Part shown: one piece after another, positions 2,729-9,299 of the stretch
Position numbering within the stretch: position 1 is the first letter of the stretch
Layout of the letters: the number at the start of each line of letters is the position of its first letter
Assembly (NCBI GenBank): GCA_024403455.1
Contig: JAKSRR010000004.1
Span: forward strand, 1-64,000
Direction of reading: 5' to 3'
Length of the DNA: 64,000 nucleotides
Source: Lachnospiraceae bacterium
Lineage (GTDB): Bacteria; Bacillota; Clostridia; Lachnospirales; Lachnospiraceae
Notes under the pieces: generated by a model
The model's database searches: none
What the model saw: the letters and a program-made list of their open reading frames with translations, nothing else
What the model was told of the DNA's origin: nothing
Translations under genes and position numbers: made by a program

Positions 2729-3676
2729 CTACTCTACACTATCCTGTGCTAACTGCTGATTAAATGAATCCAAATAAATATCCCAGTCCTGATAGCGCTC
2801 ATCACCTCTATGATCTACCAATATACCAAGAGAATGCAGGTATTCTCCCAAATAACCAGTTACTTTATTGGCTCCCCAATAATTCATATGGTCACCCTTA
2901 TCTCTGGTATCTCTTCTCCAGTCAATCCCAACATCTGCCTGCAAAATATTAAGATCTACATAGTCAATCCCAATATCTTCTGCCAGTATTTCCACACCAT
3001 TGTGTCTTCTCATATTCCAATTAACCGTGCTGGGGGTACTATAAAGAACCAGTAACGCACCTCGCTCATCACAGTATTCTTTAATCTGTCTAATATATTC
3101 CTGGTTGCGTTTCGGAATCACTTCCACTAACTCAGAGGGATCCATGTATCCATCTGTAGATGCCGGAACGATGGTAAGATCATAGCTATATCCCTTATTT
3201 TCTTCCACACCATACCCGCTATTCCTATGCACAAAGTCCGAGAATGAAAGCGTCTTCCACCTGTTATGATACAAGAACACAGGGAAGACTGTACTTAACT
3301 TATGCACTACTTCATCATTCTTTGCAGAACCATTGTATAGCATATCGGTCTCAATCATAACCACCAGTGGAGACTGATTTTTAAAGGTCTTCTCCAAAAA
3401 TTCCTTTGCATAGAAAAGTCTTTGATCCGGCGTGCCACAGCAATATGCGGTAATTCCTTTTTGCTCCCAAAGCTTTAATGGCACCACAGAAGAGTAGGTT
3501 TCACTATTTCCAAGCACCAGTACATCAATGGTTTGTTCCGGTTCAGAAACAATCGCATTCGCATGCTGATCCATCTTTTCTTTTACAACAACCATACGAG
3601 ACAATCCGTAAAGGAGTAATAATAATCCCATTACAAATATTACAGCTCGTGCGATTTTACTAACAATATCTTTCAC
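2729..3676 (-). CDS. DltD/AlgJ-like SGNH protein, membrane-anchored
   Basis: A 315-residue protein with one N-terminal membrane segment (about residues 10-30) and an extracytoplasmic domain. The hydrolase-fold signature is LGNSET with Ser58, and a DHMNYWG block with the Asp/His pair near 262-263. This layout matches the SGNH partners of MBOAT acyltransferases (DltD, AlgJ, PatB-like), which take the acyl group outside the membrane and pass it to a polymer. The frame stays open far upstream into the MBOAT gene. I place the start at GTG 3676, eight bases after the MBOAT stop, because AGGTGA lies just ahead and the MBOAT gene occupies the rest. It is the last gene of the five-gene operon. The acceptor polymer is unknown. 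Confidence 0.8.
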   Translation of the reverse strand: MKDIVSKIARAVIFVMGLLLLLYGLSRMVVVKEKMDQHANAIVSEPEQTIDVLVLGNSETYSSVVPLKLWEQKGITAYCCGTPDQRLFYAKEFLEKTFKNQSPLVVMIETDMLYNGSAKNDEVVHKLSTVFPVFLYHNRWKTLSFSDFVHRNSGYGVEENKGYSYDLTIVPASTDGYMDPSELVEVIPKRNQEYIRQIKEYCDERGALLVLYSTPSTVNWNMRRHNGVEILAEDIGIDYVDLNILQADVGIDWRRDTRDKGDHMNYWGANKVTGYLGEYLHSLGILVDHRGDERYQDWDIYLDSFNQQLAQDSVE

Positions 3677-3684
3677 ACTATCAC

Positions 3685-5316
3685 CTAATACTGTGCATAA
3701 AGTGGATCCACCACCACATATCCATAACCATAAGCGCCAAATACTACAATGCAAAGGATCAGCGCATATAGCACAATCCATCTCACTACGATATTGGTGT
3801 CAGCAAGCTTTCTTCTCACTGAAACACCTTTCTCGCTTAATATACTCACACACAATACAATGATTACAACCATTCCAACAATGATGAAATCTTTAGCGTC
3901 AACGCCGATGGTTTTCATGGTTGTCTCATCTATCAGCAAGAATGAAAAATTTGTAACCATACGCTTAAACATATGCAGTCCATTCTTCAGACCATACGCT
4001 CTAAAGAATAGTTCACCAATAACAACTAGGACGCATGTTCTGAAAATCTGCACTGCTCTATACCATTTTGCATCCGGATTTATTTTCAGTTTGCTATTTG
4101 TTTTTCTTACCAGAGGATTAATCAAACTTCCAATCAGAATCAGCACAAAATGATACATTCCAAAGAAAATAAAATTCCATGCGGCACCATGCCACAAACC
4201 GTTGCAGGCCCATACCGCAAACAAGGCAATGCTTCCTGCAAGTAAGGGACCATAGTGATTACCAATTTTCTTTCTTGCGCTGGAAGTCAGTTTTTTAATT
4301 TTCTTTGCAGAGGTAATGGGATAAAAAATATAGTCCTTAAACCAAGTACCCAAAGAAATATGCCATCTTGTCCAGAATTCTGAAATCGTTCTGGAGAAAA
4401 ATGGATGTTTAAAGTTCTCTGGCATCTGTATTCCAAATATTTGCGCCGTACCAATCACAGCATCCATAGATCCTGAGAAATCCATATATAACTGAATGGT
4501 ATATGCCACTGCCGCGAATGCGATAACTCCACCATGAAAACTAGAATAATTCGAAAAGATATGATCAACAAAGGTATTCAGACGATCTGCAACCACAATC
4601 TTCTTTAACATACCATAAAGAAGTCTTTGAATACCAAAAGTTAAATTCTCATACGTAATTTGCTTAATTTCCCATAGCTGATTCGCCGTCTGGTCATATC
4701 GACAAATGGGGCCTTCCACAATCTGTGGGAAGAAACAAATAAATAGTGCCAGTCTTCCTATATTTCTATCTGCTTTAATCTTTCCGTAATGCACATCTAA
4801 AATATAGGAAAGTGCCTGCAGGCTGAAGAAGGAGATTCCTATTGGCAACATGAACTGCGGCGCCTTGATGCTTCCTGCTATACCAAACTTGTTTAAGAGC
4901 AAATTAACATTATCAGAGAAAAATCCTGCATATTTCAGTACAAGCAATCCACCAATATGCAGCACAACTGATAAGATAACAATTCCACGTTCTTTATTAT
5001 TGTATTTTTCCTTAAGTGCTTTTCGTTCTTCTTTTTCCAGTCCGGCTGATTCCTGTTTTAGTTTGTCCTTAACCTTAGATAGCCATAGTCCAAAGAAATA
5101 CATGGACACCGTGGACAAAATTAAATAAGCAAGAAGAAGTCCGCTAATGAACCAGAAGAACATGTAGCTGACAAAAATAACAAAATATTTTTTTGCTTTC
5201 TTTGGCGTCAATGCAAATAGTACAATACACGCCGGCAAAAACATTGTGAAATACATTACGGAAAAGAAGGATGTGAGGGATACACCCTTTCCTGCCCATA
5301 ATATAGTGGACAACAT
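3685..5316 (-). CDS. MBOAT-family membrane O-acyltransferase
   Basis: Polytopic membrane protein of about 543 residues that should move an acyl group from a cytosolic donor across the membrane to an extracellular acceptor. Both conserved MBOAT histidines are present: H320 in FWTRWHIS and H377 in NGLWHGAAW. The stretch FFPQIVEGPICRYDQ near 197-210 is also typical. At ~540 residues it is closer in size to AlgI/PatA-type proteins than to DltB (about 400). A charged cytoplasmic loop rich in Lys/Glu spans about 81-111. Translation may start at GTG 5319 or ATG 5316; both follow an AGAGGA site. It lies directly after the carrier-protein gene, whose product is the likely donor. Confidence 0.92.
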   Translation of the reverse strand: MLSTILWAGKGVSLTSFFSVMYFTMFLPACIVLFALTPKKAKKYFVIFVSYMFFWFISGLLLAYLILSTVSMYFFGLWLSKVKDKLKQESAGLEKEERKALKEKYNNKERGIVILSVVLHIGGLLVLKYAGFFSDNVNLLLNKFGIAGSIKAPQFMLPIGISFFSLQALSYILDVHYGKIKADRNIGRLALFICFFPQIVEGPICRYDQTANQLWEIKQITYENLTFGIQRLLYGMLKKIVVADRLNTFVDHIFSNYSSFHGGVIAFAAVAYTIQLYMDFSGSMDAVIGTAQIFGIQMPENFKHPFFSRTISEFWTRWHISLGTWFKDYIFYPITSAKKIKKLTSSARKKIGNHYGPLLAGSIALFAVWACNGLWHGAAWNFIFFGMYHFVLILIGSLINPLVRKTNSKLKINPDAKWYRAVQIFRTCVLVVIGELFFRAYGLKNGLHMFKRMVTNFSFLLIDETTMKTIGVDAKDFIIVGMVVIIVLCVSILSEKGVSVRRKLADTNIVVRWIVLYALILCIVVFGAYGYGYVVVDPLYAQY

Positions 5317-5323
5317 CACTTTA

Positions 5324-5551
5324 TTATTCCTCTTGCAAGCGAGTTATCATCTTCATAATTCTCTCTGCAGAGTTGAAGTTATCCGGTACGATTTCAATCG
5401 CCGGAATCGTGATATCATATTCCTCTTCCAGTTCTGCGATGAGTGAAATGATTGCCAATGAATTCAAGTGATGATCATCAATCAGTGTTTCACAAGTTGC
5501 ATAATCCACATCAGGATTAATATCTTCCAAAATTTCAATCAGTTTTTCCAT
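5324..5551 (-). CDS. Acyl carrier protein (DltC-like)
   Basis: A 75-residue acidic four-helix carrier protein. The 4'-phosphopantetheine attachment serine is S31 in HHLNSLAI. The usual DSL is NSL here, with two preceding histidines, which is unusual but keeps the serine and leucine. The following helix EEEYDITIP matches the carrier-protein recognition region. The start has AAGGAG ten bases upstream. It sits between the PLP decarboxylase and the MBOAT gene, so it probably holds the aminoacyl group made by the ligase and altered by the decarboxylase, then hands it to the MBOAT. An ordinary fatty-acid ACP is unlikely in this context. Confidence 0.9.
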   Translation of the reverse strand: MEKLIEILEDINPDVDYATCETLIDDHHLNSLAIISLIAELEEEYDITIPAIEIVPDNFNSAERIMKMITRLQEE

Positions 5552-5565
5552 TCGATTTTTACTCC

Positions 5566-6741
5566 TTAATAACTTGGCATGTTCAGGTTCCTTGTCTCAT
5601 AAGATTCCCTGACACAAATATACTGCGATTCATCTTTTTTCAGATAAATAGCCGGCAAGTCTCTACTTAGAAATAGGGAAATCCCCTCCGTCATACAATA
5701 AGCACCTGTGCGCTCAAAACACATGACATCTCCCACTTCTATTTTAGGTAACTTTACTTGTTTTGCAACGATATCATTCATGGTACATAGAGATCCACAA
5801 ATTACCCACTCAGGATTCTCTTCGGTCGTCTCTTTGCCACATACCGACAAAATCGGCTTTTTCATAGCCATGTACTGCCCGAAATAGGTTAGCTGATGCA
5901 TGCCACCATCGATGAGTACATAGTTTTGCTGCTTACTACTTTTAATATCAACGATATGCGTATAGTACTTTCCACAGGAAGCAACCATACTTCTACCTAT
6001 CTCTAGGGTAATACGCACCGGGCTAACCATCTCCCCCAGCATCTGCGCAAAGGAATCGAAAATCTCCACTTCTTCATCTTTATCAGATTCGAAGTAAGAC
6101 ACGGGAAAGCCAGTTCCATATTCCAGCTCTTTTGCTTCGTAACCATACTCCTGCTTCAGTTTCTGAAGGAACTGATCCAAATAGGTAATCTCTCTCTTAT
6201 ACTTCTTAACGGAAGATTTTTGGGTTCCGGAAAAATACTGGATTCCAAGAATATCCACATATTCCTGCTGCTGTCTCTCCCTGATAATCTTCTCAATATC
6301 GCTTTCATCCATTCCAAACTGACTATCATTCGTAAGTCTTAATAGCAGTTTAATTCTCTTCCTATATTGTTTACTTAATCCACTTAATAGCCTAAACTGT
6401 TCTACAGATTCAGCCGTAAAGATACCATCAAAGTCATTTCCCCCAATATATTGTTCCATGACTGCTGCATTTTTATATACCCCAGAAATCACCATCTTTT
6501 CTGAAGGCACCTTTAGACAAGTGCAGATTTCTGCTTCCCCTGGAGAACAGATTTCAAATCGTTCTACCTGCTCTACGATTTCTTTTACAACAAAAGTATT
6601 AGCCTTTACTGCATAGCAAAGTGCCACATCCTTAGGCATCTTACTGCAAATATATTCAATTCTATTTTTCAGTTCACAGACATCAAATACATAAAATGCA
6701 TTTGCGCTTCTCTCTAGAACCTCTTCAAACGTATATGCCAA
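5566..6741 (-). CDS. Fold-type III PLP-dependent amino acid decarboxylase
   Basis: A 391-residue enzyme of the Orn/DAP/Arg decarboxylase (LysA/ODC) family. The N-terminal barrel carries the PLP lysine K46 in YAVKAN. The C-terminal part has the active-site Cys and partner Asp as C319 and D323 in SLCTMND, and a GAY motif at 346-348. Two usual PLP-site elements are altered. The HxGSQ/HVGS region reads YFSGTQ, with Phe170 where the ring-stacking His is expected. The phosphate loop GGG reads GTG near 209-211. Translation starts at TTG, two bases after the ligase stop, with GGGAG ahead, so the two are tightly coupled. Comparable trios are BtrJ/BtrI/BtrK and the exosortase-A-associated ligase/decarboxylase set, where the substrate is linked to a carrier. 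A racemase role is possible but less likely. Confidence 0.85.
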   Translation of the reverse strand: MAYTFEEVLERSANAFYVFDVCELKNRIEYICSKMPKDVALCYAVKANTFVVKEIVEQVERFEICSPGEAEICTCLKVPSEKMVISGVYKNAAVMEQYIGGNDFDGIFTAESVEQFRLLSGLSKQYRKRIKLLLRLTNDSQFGMDESDIEKIIRERQQQEYVDILGIQYFSGTQKSSVKKYKREITYLDQFLQKLKQEYGYEAKELEYGTGFPVSYFESDKDEEVEIFDSFAQMLGEMVSPVRITLEIGRSMVASCGKYYTHIVDIKSSKQQNYVLIDGGMHQLTYFGQYMAMKKPILSVCGKETTEENPEWVICGSLCTMNDIVAKQVKLPKIEVGDVMCFERTGAYCMTEGISLFLSRDLPAIYLKKDESQYICVRESYETRNLNMPSY

Positions 6742-6743
6742 GG

Positions 6744-8255
6744 TTAATCTCCCAACTGCGCCAGTGTCGCTTTCCTATCAATTTTACCATTCTTGGATAG
6801 TACCATGCTATCAATCTGACGCATAAATCCCGGAATCATGAATATCGGTAAAGTTTCACTTAAGCACTGGTGCAATTCCTTTTTCTCGATACTCCCCACA
6901 TAGTAGGCCTTTATTCTAGATTTTTTCTCGTCATAAATACAAAAGCAACGTTCCACTCCATCTACTCTTTCAATGGAATGCTCCACCTCTTCCATTTCAA
7001 TTCTGTGACCCATATGTTTCACTTGATTGTCTACTCGTCCGCAGAACATGATTTCCCCTAGAGCATTATACTTTCCCACATCTCCGGTTTTATATACAAG
7101 CTCCGGATACGCTGACTGCGCTGGATTCTGCACAAAATGTTCTGCCGTTTTATCTGGCATATTGTAATATCCCAAGGCAAGAGCCGTCCCCCGCACAATG
7201 ATTTCTCCCGGTATATCCGAATCGCAAATGGTTTTTCCTTCTGCATCAATCAGAAATACATCCTCATTAGGAAATGCTTTACCAATGGGAAGTCCACTCT
7301 CATAATCCCTATCAGCTTCCAAAATATGGTATGTGCAATTACAAGTGATCTCTGTGGGGCCATATAAATTCACATACATTGCATTTGGCAGATGCTTTTG
7401 CCACTCTTTCAAGTGTTTATATGGCATGATTTCACCACTGAATAAGATTTTGTTAACACTAACAGGCTGTCTGTAATCCAGGCCATGAAAGGTGGTAATC
7501 AAACAAAGCGCTGATACTGCCCAAATCATGGTTGTTACCTGGTGATCGCATAGGCAATCCAGCAACTCCGTAGGTTTGGAAAACAGCTCCTTCGCAACAA
7601 TCACAAGTGTTGCCCCGGTCTTCATAGCAGAATAAATATCTTTGACAGAAACATCAAAATCGAAGGGAGCCTGATTCGCAATCACATCCTCCCCCGTAAT
7701 ATGAAACAATTCTGTGAAGCATTCCATAAAATCGATAACGCTTCTATGGCAAACCACAATTCCTTTGGGAACACCTGTAGATCCTGATGTGAAGTTGATG
7801 TATAAGGGATCCGTGTCTATTCTATGACTACGTATTTCCTCAAGTCTCTTCTCGTCAGGCAGATTCGCAGTAAGACTTTCTATATCTAAGATTTTTACAC
7901 CAGGAAAATAACTCTTTGCGGCCTCCATAAGCGCAGCAGTAGTCACAATCACTCTTAGCTGTAATACCTCGCTGATCTGCTTTAGACGCGCTTCTGGAAG
8001 TCCGGGATTCAGCATCGAATAACAGCCGCCTGCATAAACCGTACCAAAGAAGGAACATAACGCATCAATGCCCTTCTCCATATATAGGCCTACGGGCTCT
8101 TTCGCAGTTATCATGGATGATAACGCTGTACCAATTCTCCGGCTTTTTTCCTGTAATTGTATATAGGTAATAGAATGTGCACCTTCTATCACGGCAACCT
8201 TGTTCGGATTGTCGCTAGCACTGTCTTCTAAATACTCTAGTACGTTTCTTTTCAT
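6744..8255 (-). CDS. AMP-forming aminoacyl ligase (DltA-like adenylation enzyme)
   Basis: Stand-alone adenylation domain of 503 residues that should activate an amino acid with ATP and load it on the carrier encoded two genes downstream. Core motifs are complete: A3 FTSGSTGVPKG at 155-165, A5 NLYGPTE at 296-302, A7 YKTGD at 388-392, A8 beginning GRVDNQ at 406, and the A10 lysine K491 in NGKIDRK. Overall layout is that of DltA and NRPS A-domains, with no attached carrier domain. I cannot deduce substrate specificity; D-alanine is the DltA precedent, but the coupled decarboxylase argues for a dicarboxylic amino acid. It is the first gene of the operon, with a GAGGGG ribosome site. Confidence 0.88.
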   Translation of the reverse strand: MKRNVLEYLEDSASDNPNKVAVIEGAHSITYIQLQEKSRRIGTALSSMITAKEPVGLYMEKGIDALCSFFGTVYAGGCYSMLNPGLPEARLKQISEVLQLRVIVTTAALMEAAKSYFPGVKILDIESLTANLPDEKRLEEIRSHRIDTDPLYINFTSGSTGVPKGIVVCHRSVIDFMECFTELFHITGEDVIANQAPFDFDVSVKDIYSAMKTGATLVIVAKELFSKPTELLDCLCDHQVTTMIWAVSALCLITTFHGLDYRQPVSVNKILFSGEIMPYKHLKEWQKHLPNAMYVNLYGPTEITCNCTYHILEADRDYESGLPIGKAFPNEDVFLIDAEGKTICDSDIPGEIIVRGTALALGYYNMPDKTAEHFVQNPAQSAYPELVYKTGDVGKYNALGEIMFCGRVDNQVKHMGHRIEMEEVEHSIERVDGVERCFCIYDEKKSRIKAYYVGSIEKKELHQCLSETLPIFMIPGFMRQIDSMVLSKNGKIDRKATLAQLGD

Positions 8256-8321: not shown

Positions 8322-9299
8322 CTACATTCTCGCTAAAGGTATACCATAGGGGCTCAGCGCATCACGGTGACTACGCTTGATTTCTTCCCTATACTCTAAC
8401 GGTGTAGTATTCATCGTTCTCTTAAATATTTTATTAAAATAGCTGGCATTTTGGAATCCAACTTCCTCTGCCAGATTTGCAATCTGGTACTTCTCCTGCG
8501 CATTTTGCTGCATCTTTACCGCTGACATATATACTCGCCAAGTATTTAAATAATCAAAGGGCGAGACATCCATGGATCTTTTGAAAAAGCGACAACACTC
8601 GCTCTTACTAACATGCACATATTCAGCAATGTCATCCAGTGTTATTTTTTTCTCATAATGATTCTGAATGAACAGAATCGCTTTCTTAGTTCTTTCCTCA
8701 TCCACCTCAGCACTGCTGAGATTCTCGGATGGTCCCTTCTTTAATGCAGGGCATAATTTGAGTGTCCTGTTCAAATAATGCATCCATAGTTTGCTGAGTT
8801 CACTCTTTGTAATTAACTCATAACCAAAAGGCTGTTCCAAATTGGTGTTTACAATATTTCTAATATACTCCAGCGCTGTTCGTCCATACAAATCCTGTCC
8901 GGAGAACACTTCTATGGTAAGGCCGCCATTACCTAATGCAGCTGCTGCATACTTAGAAAATAGGAACGTTTCCTTTCCTCCAAACAGATAGTCAGCATTA
9001 AACATGGTGGAAATAATTTCACAAGGTTCCTCCGCATAAATGGAATGTAAATGATTTCCATTTAATAACACTGCACTGCCGCTGGATACTCGGTAGGTTT
9101 TCTCACCCATACAAAAAACAGCAGTACCTTTTCGCACTAGGGCTATTTCTAATTCTTCATGCCAGTGCCAATAGGCTCTTTCCAAAAACATCTTAGAAAG
9201 TTCCACATAGTAAATGCCTACCGGATAGTCCGTACCCGTATGGGTGTTGGCATATACCATGGTTTCTTTTGCAATTTTTAATCGTTTTTCTCTGGCCAT
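8322..9299 (-). CDS. AraC-family transcriptional regulator with cupin sensor
   Basis: A 325-residue regulator. Residues about 20-105 form a cupin-like ligand pocket (YWHWHEELEIALV and later a GNHLHS segment). The C-terminal ~100 residues hold the two helix-turn-helix units: the first around ITLDDIAEYVHVSKSE and the second around IANLAEEVGFQNASYFNKIF. AraC proteins with cupins usually bind a sugar or similar small molecule and activate nearby genes. It lies 66 bases upstream of the surface-modification operon on the same strand, so it may control that operon; this is inference. The ATG at 9299 follows prfA by six bases and has a poor ribosome site, so the true start could be slightly downstream. 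Confidence 0.88.
   Translation of the reverse strand: MAREKRLKIAKETMVYANTHTGTDYPVGIYYVELSKMFLERAYWHWHEELEIALVRKGTAVFCMGEKTYRVSSGSAVLLNGNHLHSIYAEEPCEIISTMFNADYLFGGKETFLFSKYAAAALGNGGLTIEVFSGQDLYGRTALEYIRNIVNTNLEQPFGYELITKSELSKLWMHYLNRTLKLCPALKKGPSENLSSAEVDEERTKKAILFIQNHYEKKITLDDIAEYVHVSKSECCRFFKRSMDVSPFDYLNTWRVYMSAVKMQQNAQEKYQIANLAEEVGFQNASYFNKIFKRTMNTTPLEYREEIKRSHRDALSPYGIPLARM

Follow-up and report, generated by a model that had tools for sequence, protein, structure and literature searches.

Here we describe a five-gene operon that occupies positions 2729-8255, all on the minus strand, of a 64,000-nucleotide stretch of DNA from a Lachnospiraceae bacterium (assembly GCA_024403455.1, contig JAKSRR010000004.1, positions 1 to 64,000; hereafter the window). 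The operon probably encodes a carrier-dependent envelope acylation system, in which aspartate or glutamate would be loaded onto a carrier protein through its side chain, decarboxylated on the carrier, and transferred to a surface polymer by an MBOAT and an SGNH protein; we put the probability of this reading at roughly 60%. D-alanylation is one of the main means that Gram-positive bacteria have of adjusting their surface charge and withstanding cationic peptides, and if the reading is true, gut bacteria including Ruminococcus bromii carry an overlooked surface amine chemistry. Among the matches listed from the openly licensed literature, we found no description of such an operon, nor of omega-amino acylation by carrier-bound decarboxylation as a surface decoration. 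The five genes, and the residues on which the argument turns, are as follows.

6744-8255, minus strand: adenylating ligase (DltA-like adenylation domain), 503 aa, pocket code DVKILSLCNK
7641-7643, minus strand: ligase Lys205, equivalent of pocket position 239
5566-6741, minus strand: pyridoxal phosphate (PLP)-dependent decarboxylase of the alanine-racemase fold, BtrK-like, 391 aa, TTG start
5782-5787, minus strand: decarboxylase Cys319-Thr320, with Thr at the place of LysA's Glu
5324-5551, minus strand: carrier protein, 75 aa, phosphopantetheine Ser31 in DDHHLNSLAI
3685-5283 (alternative start 5319), minus strand: MBOAT acyltransferase, PF03062
3697-3699, minus strand: MBOAT tyrosine in the C-terminal hexapeptide PLYAQY, putative acyl shuttle by analogy
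2729-3676, minus strand: SGNH protein bearing a hydrophobic stretch at its N-terminus, conserved GxS and HLN His, putative DltD/PatB-like role

An earlier annotation of the window (the sequence-only reading) had described five adjacent, tightly spaced genes with a decarboxylase TTG start two bases after the ligase. Both statements held, the TTG lying exactly 2 bases past the ligase stop, with minor corrections to two other starts: the MBOAT may begin at a GTG at 5283 instead of at 5319, and spacing and upstream sequence make a GTG at 3676 the more likely start of the SGNH gene over an ATG at 3781, which would give a 97-base overlap with the MBOAT gene.

In the mechanism that we propose, the ligase would adenylate Asp or Glu and load it onto the 75-aa carrier via the side-chain carboxylate, with the basic residue at pocket position 239 holding the free alpha-carboxylate. 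The PLP enzyme, which would recognize the carrier-bound substrate as BtrK does, would then strip the alpha-carboxylate to leave an omega-amino acyl thioester, which would be beta-alanyl if Asp is loaded and 4-aminobutyryl if Glu is; on chemical grounds beta-alanyl is favoured because thioesters and esters of 4-aminobutyrate (GABA) lactamise readily and beta-alanyl ones do not. The MBOAT would carry the acyl group across the membrane onto the tyrosine of its own C-terminal hexapeptide, doing the job of DltX, and the SGNH serine would receive the group and pass it on to the hydroxyl groups of a polymer at the cell surface, probably of the lipoteichoic acid type, where the amine would offset negative charge. 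The sequence-only reading had proposed that the operon makes an omega-amino acyl carrier and transfers the group to an external glycan or teichoic-type polymer. The parts of that proposal that have gained support are an MBOAT-SGNH acylation system that uses a carrier and differs from dlt, a BtrK-like decarboxylase, and a pocket suiting an acidic amino acid. Gene content, gene order, conservation, catalytic residues, the pocket code, and the residues unlike those of LysA are seen directly in the sequences; the chemistry and order of the first two steps, the omega-amino acid, the acceptor, the gain of charge, and the physiological role are what we infer.

The five-gene order, which had been put forward as something to look for in other genomes, recurs in many of them. 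A search of 250 Lachnospiraceae genomes with the decarboxylase (E 1e-40) found it in at least 46, the window's own counted; this is a lower bound, as an extra case (locus L259, genome G112) surfaced later. The sole genome of the same genus listed (G004) had no decarboxylase match at this threshold. A plasmid collection gave no match at E 1e-40. Across the phylum, 4 of 398 genomes, again with the window's own counted, matched the decarboxylase at E 1e-50, and the system therefore appears to be concentrated in some families. Two sets of loci were compared, namely 46 loci from 45 other Lachnospiraceae genomes and, from named genome contigs, the best 80 of the relatives matched there (at least 563). 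The latter set is biased toward close relatives; the sets have at least two loci in common (L035/L134 and L038/L175). All five genes fall on the same strand inside 6 kb in 30/46 family loci and 66/80 named-contig loci, and the plain order ligase-decarboxylase-carrier-MBOAT-SGNH, with unlabelled genes skipped, is found in 24 and 53 of them, respectively. Ligase and decarboxylase are side by side in 45/46 and 79/80 loci; the gap between them has a median of -4 nt and does not exceed 60 nt for 115 of the 120 adjacent pairs. Pairwise protein divergences were correlated in all six comparisons made, with r from 0.51 to 0.89 (ligase/decarboxylase 0.74, decarboxylase/MBOAT 0.70, MBOAT/SGNH 0.89) and 0/1000 permutations as high in each; these comparisons used 22 to 42 loci, after rows L043, L060, and L069 had been removed. 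Hosts include R. bromii (L100, L101), Catenibacillus scindens, Acetobacterium wieringae, Enorma phocaeensis, and one Eggerthellaceae metagenome-assembled genome. A five-gene operon with a decarboxylase of 48% identity also occurs in a record titled Streptococcus suis (L155), perhaps through contamination or mislabelling of that assembly.

The decarboxylase scores above cut-off with both the N and the C domain of Pfam's ornithine/diaminopimelate (DAP) decarboxylases. Its closest solved structure is BtrK (2j66/7ru7), both by single sequence (E 2e-28) and in a profile search against solved structures, where BtrK scored 213.5 bits and the next protein 182.4; DAP, ornithine, and arginine enzymes were also among the profile matches. 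According to the available part of PMC7857480, BtrK converts carrier-bound glutamate to carrier-bound GABA. The PLP lysine (Lys46), Cys319, and Asp323 are kept in 46/46 decarboxylases, and the residue after the catalytic cysteine is Thr (51) or Ser (8) in 59/59 family members and Thr in BtrK, as opposed to Glu in 11/11 LysA-type enzymes. In a FastTree phylogeny, the decarboxylase family formed a clade with support 0.90 and the LysA enzymes one with support 0.99. Of the named models, the exosortase-A-associated TIGR03099 fits the window enzyme best, and it and the lysA model each match 32/32 aligned decarboxylase members. A separate LysA-type gene (at least 259 bits) is present in 42 of the 45 relatives; the remaining three genomes (G001, G016, and G128), in which no such gene was found in one piece, are all less than 90% complete. 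The nearest solved structure and the residue after the catalytic cysteine support a decarboxylase that is closer to BtrK than to LysA. An alpha-decarboxylase of the alanine-racemase fold requires free alpha-amino and alpha-carboxyl groups. If the enzyme works on the carrier, the amino acid would therefore be held by its side-chain carboxylate, and an omega-amino acid is proposed because on-carrier alpha-decarboxylation would demand such an attachment.

The ligase matches the amino-acid adenylation domain model TIGR01733 (331.9 bits) and Pfam AMP-binding over cut-off, and scores far below cut-off with the models for DltA (TIGR01734; 284.9 bits, cut-off 559.85) and for the exosortase-A ligase (TIGR03098; 223 bits, cut-off 592). 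Its ten pocket positions read DVKILSLCNK. The code D[VI]K..S[LVI]CNK is shared by 43/46 family ligases, window counted (L069 lacks the last position), and DVK..SLCNK by 79/79 readable named-contig ligases, 1 of the 80 being partial. Comparison of the pocket with that of DltA, which had been advocated earlier, gave a different code in the DltA-type ligases of the family, 10/11 of which read DLMVLCTV[AC]K, with Met at the third position. In the decarboxylase-linked ligases this third position, presumably position 239 in GrsA numbering (Lys205 of the window ligase), is basic in 46/46 cases (Lys 44, Arg 2). A ligase match at E 1e-90 was found in 97/250 family genomes, and 68 loci outside the decarboxylase operons of the first search were read; L259, a decarboxylase operon with a linked ligase, and L190, a contig-end ligase piece from genome G001, were left out, which gives 66 loci for comparison. 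Lys or Arg occupies the third position in 46/46 decarboxylase-linked ligases versus 38/66 others (Fisher P 2e-8, relatedness ignored). Glutamate-activating domains have Lys at the third code position, and domains that activate the side chain of aminoadipate, methyl-Asp, or iso-Glu have Arg there. The conserved basic residue fits an acidic amino acid substrate, and by itself tells neither which carboxylate would be activated nor whether Asp or Glu is used.

The same code retains the pocket Asp at position 235, which is typical of enzymes activating an alpha-carboxylate. One might thus imagine that Asp is loaded by its alpha-carboxylate, with the basic residue at 239 binding the side chain, and that on-carrier loss of the beta-carboxylate, catalysed by the PLP enzyme, yields an alanyl-carrier, i.e., D-alanylation by another route. 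We consider this very unlikely, as the characterized decarboxylases of this fold that we know of remove the alpha-carboxylate. The product of BtrK, the nearest solved relative, is likewise carrier-bound GABA from carrier-bound glutamate (PMC7857480, available part).

The remaining three proteins would supply the carrier and the transfer machinery. The carrier matches PF00550 (PP-binding) at 22.5 bits, just above the cut-off of 20.8, and reaches 34.9 of the 68 bits required by the DltC model. The MBOAT matches PF03062 at 61 bits (cut-off 27), and its catalytic His in NGLWHG is kept in 36/36 family MBOATs, window counted, as are a Tyr four residues from the end and a final Phe or Tyr; in the named-contig set the C-terminal Tyr is found in 75 of 76 proteins, the single miss being a cut frame. 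In MBOAT-SGNH systems, the MBOAT acylates a tyrosine within its own C-terminal FXYXXF motif and the group is then passed to a polymer by the SGNH protein, whereas DltB relies on DltX for the acyl shuttle, as set out in the available part of PMC12148441, which describes other MBOAT/SGNH pathways as being without a carrier of the Dlt type. The first Phe of this motif is replaced by Pro, Leu, or Met in many MBOATs, with Pro in the window. Among 24 SGNH proteins, window counted, the GxS position holds Ser in 21, Cys in 2, and a gap in 1, and the HLN His is kept in 24/24, with an Asp at DxxxH spacing. The window SGNH protein matches no Pfam family; GDSL_2 is weakly matched by 10/20 aligned SGNH members, the window's not among them, and a profile search of the SGNH proteins against solved structures gave chance matches only. 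Judged by these motifs, the transfer machinery is that of a putative PatA-type MBOAT supplied by a Dlt-type carrier, a pairing that the available part of PMC12148441 does not describe. The window's genome contains 8 matches to the operon MBOAT, own included, one of them just past the window (contig C30, 65777-67282), which suggests that it may encode several surface acylation systems.

Like the Dlt system (DltA, DltB, DltC, DltD, DltX), the operon combines an adenylating ligase, a small carrier, an MBOAT with a catalytic His, and an SGNH partner. It differs from Dlt in lacking the D-Ala code, in the extra decarboxylase, probably in a shuttle-type Tyr hexapeptide at the MBOAT C-terminus that would stand in for DltX, and in gene order, with true dlt loci (L202-L205) reading ligase-MBOAT-carrier followed by a protein of 389 to 393 aa and the operon reading ligase-decarboxylase-carrier-MBOAT-SGNH. 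An ordinary dlt operon into which a lysine-biosynthesis gene was inserted by chance is therefore a proposal that we rejected, and to which we give next to no credence. The DltA, DltB, and DltC models do rank among the best-scoring named families, but all three are far under their cut-offs, and the pocket code and gene order also rule out ordinary dlt; the adjacency of ligase and decarboxylase in nearly every locus, the residues that set the enzyme apart from LysA, and the second LysA in 42/45 relatives rule out a chance insertion. The sequence-only reading had itself named a place within ordinary dlt operons with a known racemase as a contrary outcome; by cut-offs, pocket code, and order the five genes lie outside such operons, the loci not having been searched for racemases. 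Within the family, a true dlt ligase over cut-off occurs in 6/250 genomes (10/250 at E 1e-130), versus at least 46/250 for the operon decarboxylase, and true dlt over cut-off occurs in 2 of the 45 other operon-bearing genomes. In the available part of PMC10877564, 8/8 gut commensals tested for lantibiotic sensitivity are reported to have no complete dltABCD.

PatA/PatB-type MBOAT-SGNH pairs share with the operon the C-terminal hexapeptide Tyr on the MBOAT and a separate SGNH protein; however, PatA draws on acetyl-CoA (PMC12148441, available part), whereas the acyl group of the operon would come from a dedicated ligase and carrier. The exosortase-A pair TIGR03098/TIGR03099 likewise joins a ligase and a decarboxylase in one system, but the operon proteins are far under both cut-offs, and both models are hypothetical equivalogs, named by association rather than tested function. 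The analogy drawn earlier with butirosin synthesis survives in part. BtrI and BtrK offer a carrier and an alanine-racemase-fold decarboxylase with a CTxxD motif, and BtrK is the nearest decarboxylase structure, but they belong to an antibiotic pathway in which we know of no MBOAT or SGNH protein, and BtrJ, which we take to be an ATP-grasp ligase unlike the operon ligase in fold, is a poor parallel for the latter. The VinN/VinL/VinO enzymes of vicenistatin synthesis come closer in logic, comprising an adenylation enzyme, a stand-alone carrier, and a PLP decarboxylase that acts on carrier-bound 3-methyl-Asp and needs the thioester; this likeness is one of described function, and the Vin product is a polyketide starter unit with no envelope transfer (PMC11284099, available part).

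The 66 decarboxylase-free ligase loci suggest how the system may vary. Among the neighbours printed for them, a carrier is present in 58, accompanied by an MBOAT in 46 and by both an MBOAT and an SGNH protein in 44; their ligase codes fall into DAKC (25), DVK (11), SM-type (10), and others (20). A formyltransferase homologue is found in 4/11 DVK-code operons without decarboxylase versus 0/55 other decarboxylase-free loci, all four next to the same ligase code:

L191, 4122-5003: formyltransferase (PF00551), between ligase and carrier
L274, 4056-4940: formyltransferase (PF00551), between ligase and carrier
L286, 3448-4302: formyltransferase (PF00551), between ligase and carrier
L267, 2-850: formyltransferase

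Among the 126 decarboxylase loci, the formyltransferase query gave weaker matches in L073 (E 2e-11) and L102 (E 5e-6, on the flank's other side). In the ligase tree the main DVK clade has support 1.0, and 42/46 of its members are decarboxylase-linked, L259 counted; one of the 4 non-linked members is the contig-end piece L190. Formyltransferases beside the same ligase code suggest alternative tailoring of one loaded amino acid, and the occurrence of decarboxylase-linked, formyltransferase-linked, and plain DVK operons favours the loading of an acidic amino acid that then undergoes trimming, formylation, or no change before it is exported. Operons of related type that differ in pocket code, along with the formyltransferases, suggest an alphabet of surface acyl groups. 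We give even odds to the broader proposal that Lachnospiraceae envelope acylation is combinatorial, with one ligase-carrier-MBOAT-SGNH chassis, switched pocket codes, and on-carrier tailoring (decarboxylation, N-formylation, or none), omega-amino acylation largely replacing D-alanylation. Other members of this ligase family include those with the SM-type code, which has Ser for the amino-binding pocket Asp (L193, L241, L254, L260, L265, L266, L273, L275, L284, and L285) and may load a hydroxy acid or another non-amino acid acyl group. In L269, one of the seven DVK operons with neither decarboxylase nor formyltransferase homologue, a GNAT-type gene lies between the MBOAT and SGNH genes. L196, L257, and L276 are ligase-carrier operons with the code DIFFWALLDK followed by a gene of 354-356 aa, which in L196 resembles ketoacyl synthase III by eye; these operons would lead from this ligase family to another kind of product.

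Several observations weigh against the proposed mechanism. The decarboxylase is far under the cut-offs of both TIGR03099 (164/478 bits) and lysA (159.2/297.9), most separate LysA-type genes of the family scoring 259-291 bits, just below the lysA cut-off, and BtrK was placed outside the decarboxylase clade, as well as outside the LysA clade, in the FastTree phylogeny. The genome that the window comes from (2.23 Mb, 35 contigs, 81.8% complete) yielded no second LysA, and the operon enzyme may still have a role in lysine synthesis there. The pocket positions were set by motif alignment rather than a structure; 3/46 decarboxylase-linked ligases have other codes (DAKCAVLGVK in L043, IARGCSQASK in L063 and L073), and the basic pocket residue also occurs outside decarboxylase operons, in 38/66 other ligases, 25 of them of the DAKC class. 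One or more partners are missing nearby in 16/46 family loci, some of them at contig ends. Finally, 7 of the 11 DVK operons without decarboxylase also have no formyltransferase homologue, which leaves room for occasional use of the loaded acid without trimming.

An alternative is a decarboxylase that acts on a free amino acid, with the ligase then activating the free product (beta-alanine, GABA, or similar) and the acylation half remaining the same. Activity on free amino acids is common among PLP decarboxylases of this fold, the lysA model gives the window enzyme 159 bits as well, and the adjacency of the two genes fits equally. We nevertheless regard this alternative as unlikely: the basic pocket residue would be without a partner if the substrate had no second carboxylate, the DVK code also occurs in 11/66 ligases that have no decarboxylase beside them, BtrK is the nearest solved structure, and LysA's Glu is missing.

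Asp or Glu could be loaded and the decarboxylase belong to the system, with the acceptor being a capsule, glycan, lipid, or secreted product instead of a teichoic-type polymer, an alternative that we think somewhat doubtful and still take seriously. PF04464 is matched (E 1e-5) in 27/46 operon-bearing genomes and has no match in the other 19, the window's included, which also counts against a teichoic-type acceptor in the host itself. In addition, five loci (L054, L067, L070, L072, and L074) have ligase, decarboxylase, and carrier with no MBOAT or SGNH gene nearby. The genomes of these five nevertheless carry MBOAT genes elsewhere, as MBOAT matches were found, in the operon or elsewhere, in 10/10 genomes searched, these five included. 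The window's genome encodes two neighbouring sulfatase-domain (PF00884) proteins (G000:C32:13314-16498), which look LtaS-like by eye, one of them having been read, and envelope polymers are the targets in the described cases of MBOAT-SGNH pairs that have the C-terminal Tyr motif (PMC12148441, available part). The gene after the second sulfatase-domain protein looks like a serine hydroxymethyltransferase.

With regard to regulation, 32/126 loci have a histidine kinase and response regulator no more than 2.5 kb from the operon, and kinases account for 38/616 genes within 2.5 kb versus 7/545 at 2.5-7 kb, as counted by similarity to two of the loci's own pairs. Such neighbours would fit an envelope-stress response; the window has an AraC-type regulator there instead. 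A pattern scan for an operon promoter was uninformative (14 sites versus 23.4 in shuffles).

In the window, the operon is flanked upstream by the AraC-type regulator (8322-9299) and prfA, and downstream by a gene for a 126-aa protein (2258-2638) and one for a GDSL lipoprotein (932-2215). Among open reading frames of the 46 relatives' loci (E 1e-3), prfA, the 126-aa protein, and the lipoprotein had no match and the AraC-type regulator matched only in L047 and L070 (41 and 18 bits), and the four neighbours were dropped as candidate operon parts. The GDSL-type lipoprotein, on the same strand two genes downstream, could be an acyl-removing esterase.

Two relatives carry further domains at the decarboxylase. 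In L038 (9175-10215), a protein with Ig-like and transglutaminase-like domains and a hydrophobic stretch is encoded between decarboxylase and MBOAT, and in L043 (5838-9179), Ig-like and transglutaminase-like domains are fused to the decarboxylase in a protein of 1114 aa; both loci have Cys for Ser in the SGNH GxS motif. Speculatively, the transglutaminase-like proteins could possibly use the new amine as a cross-linking point.

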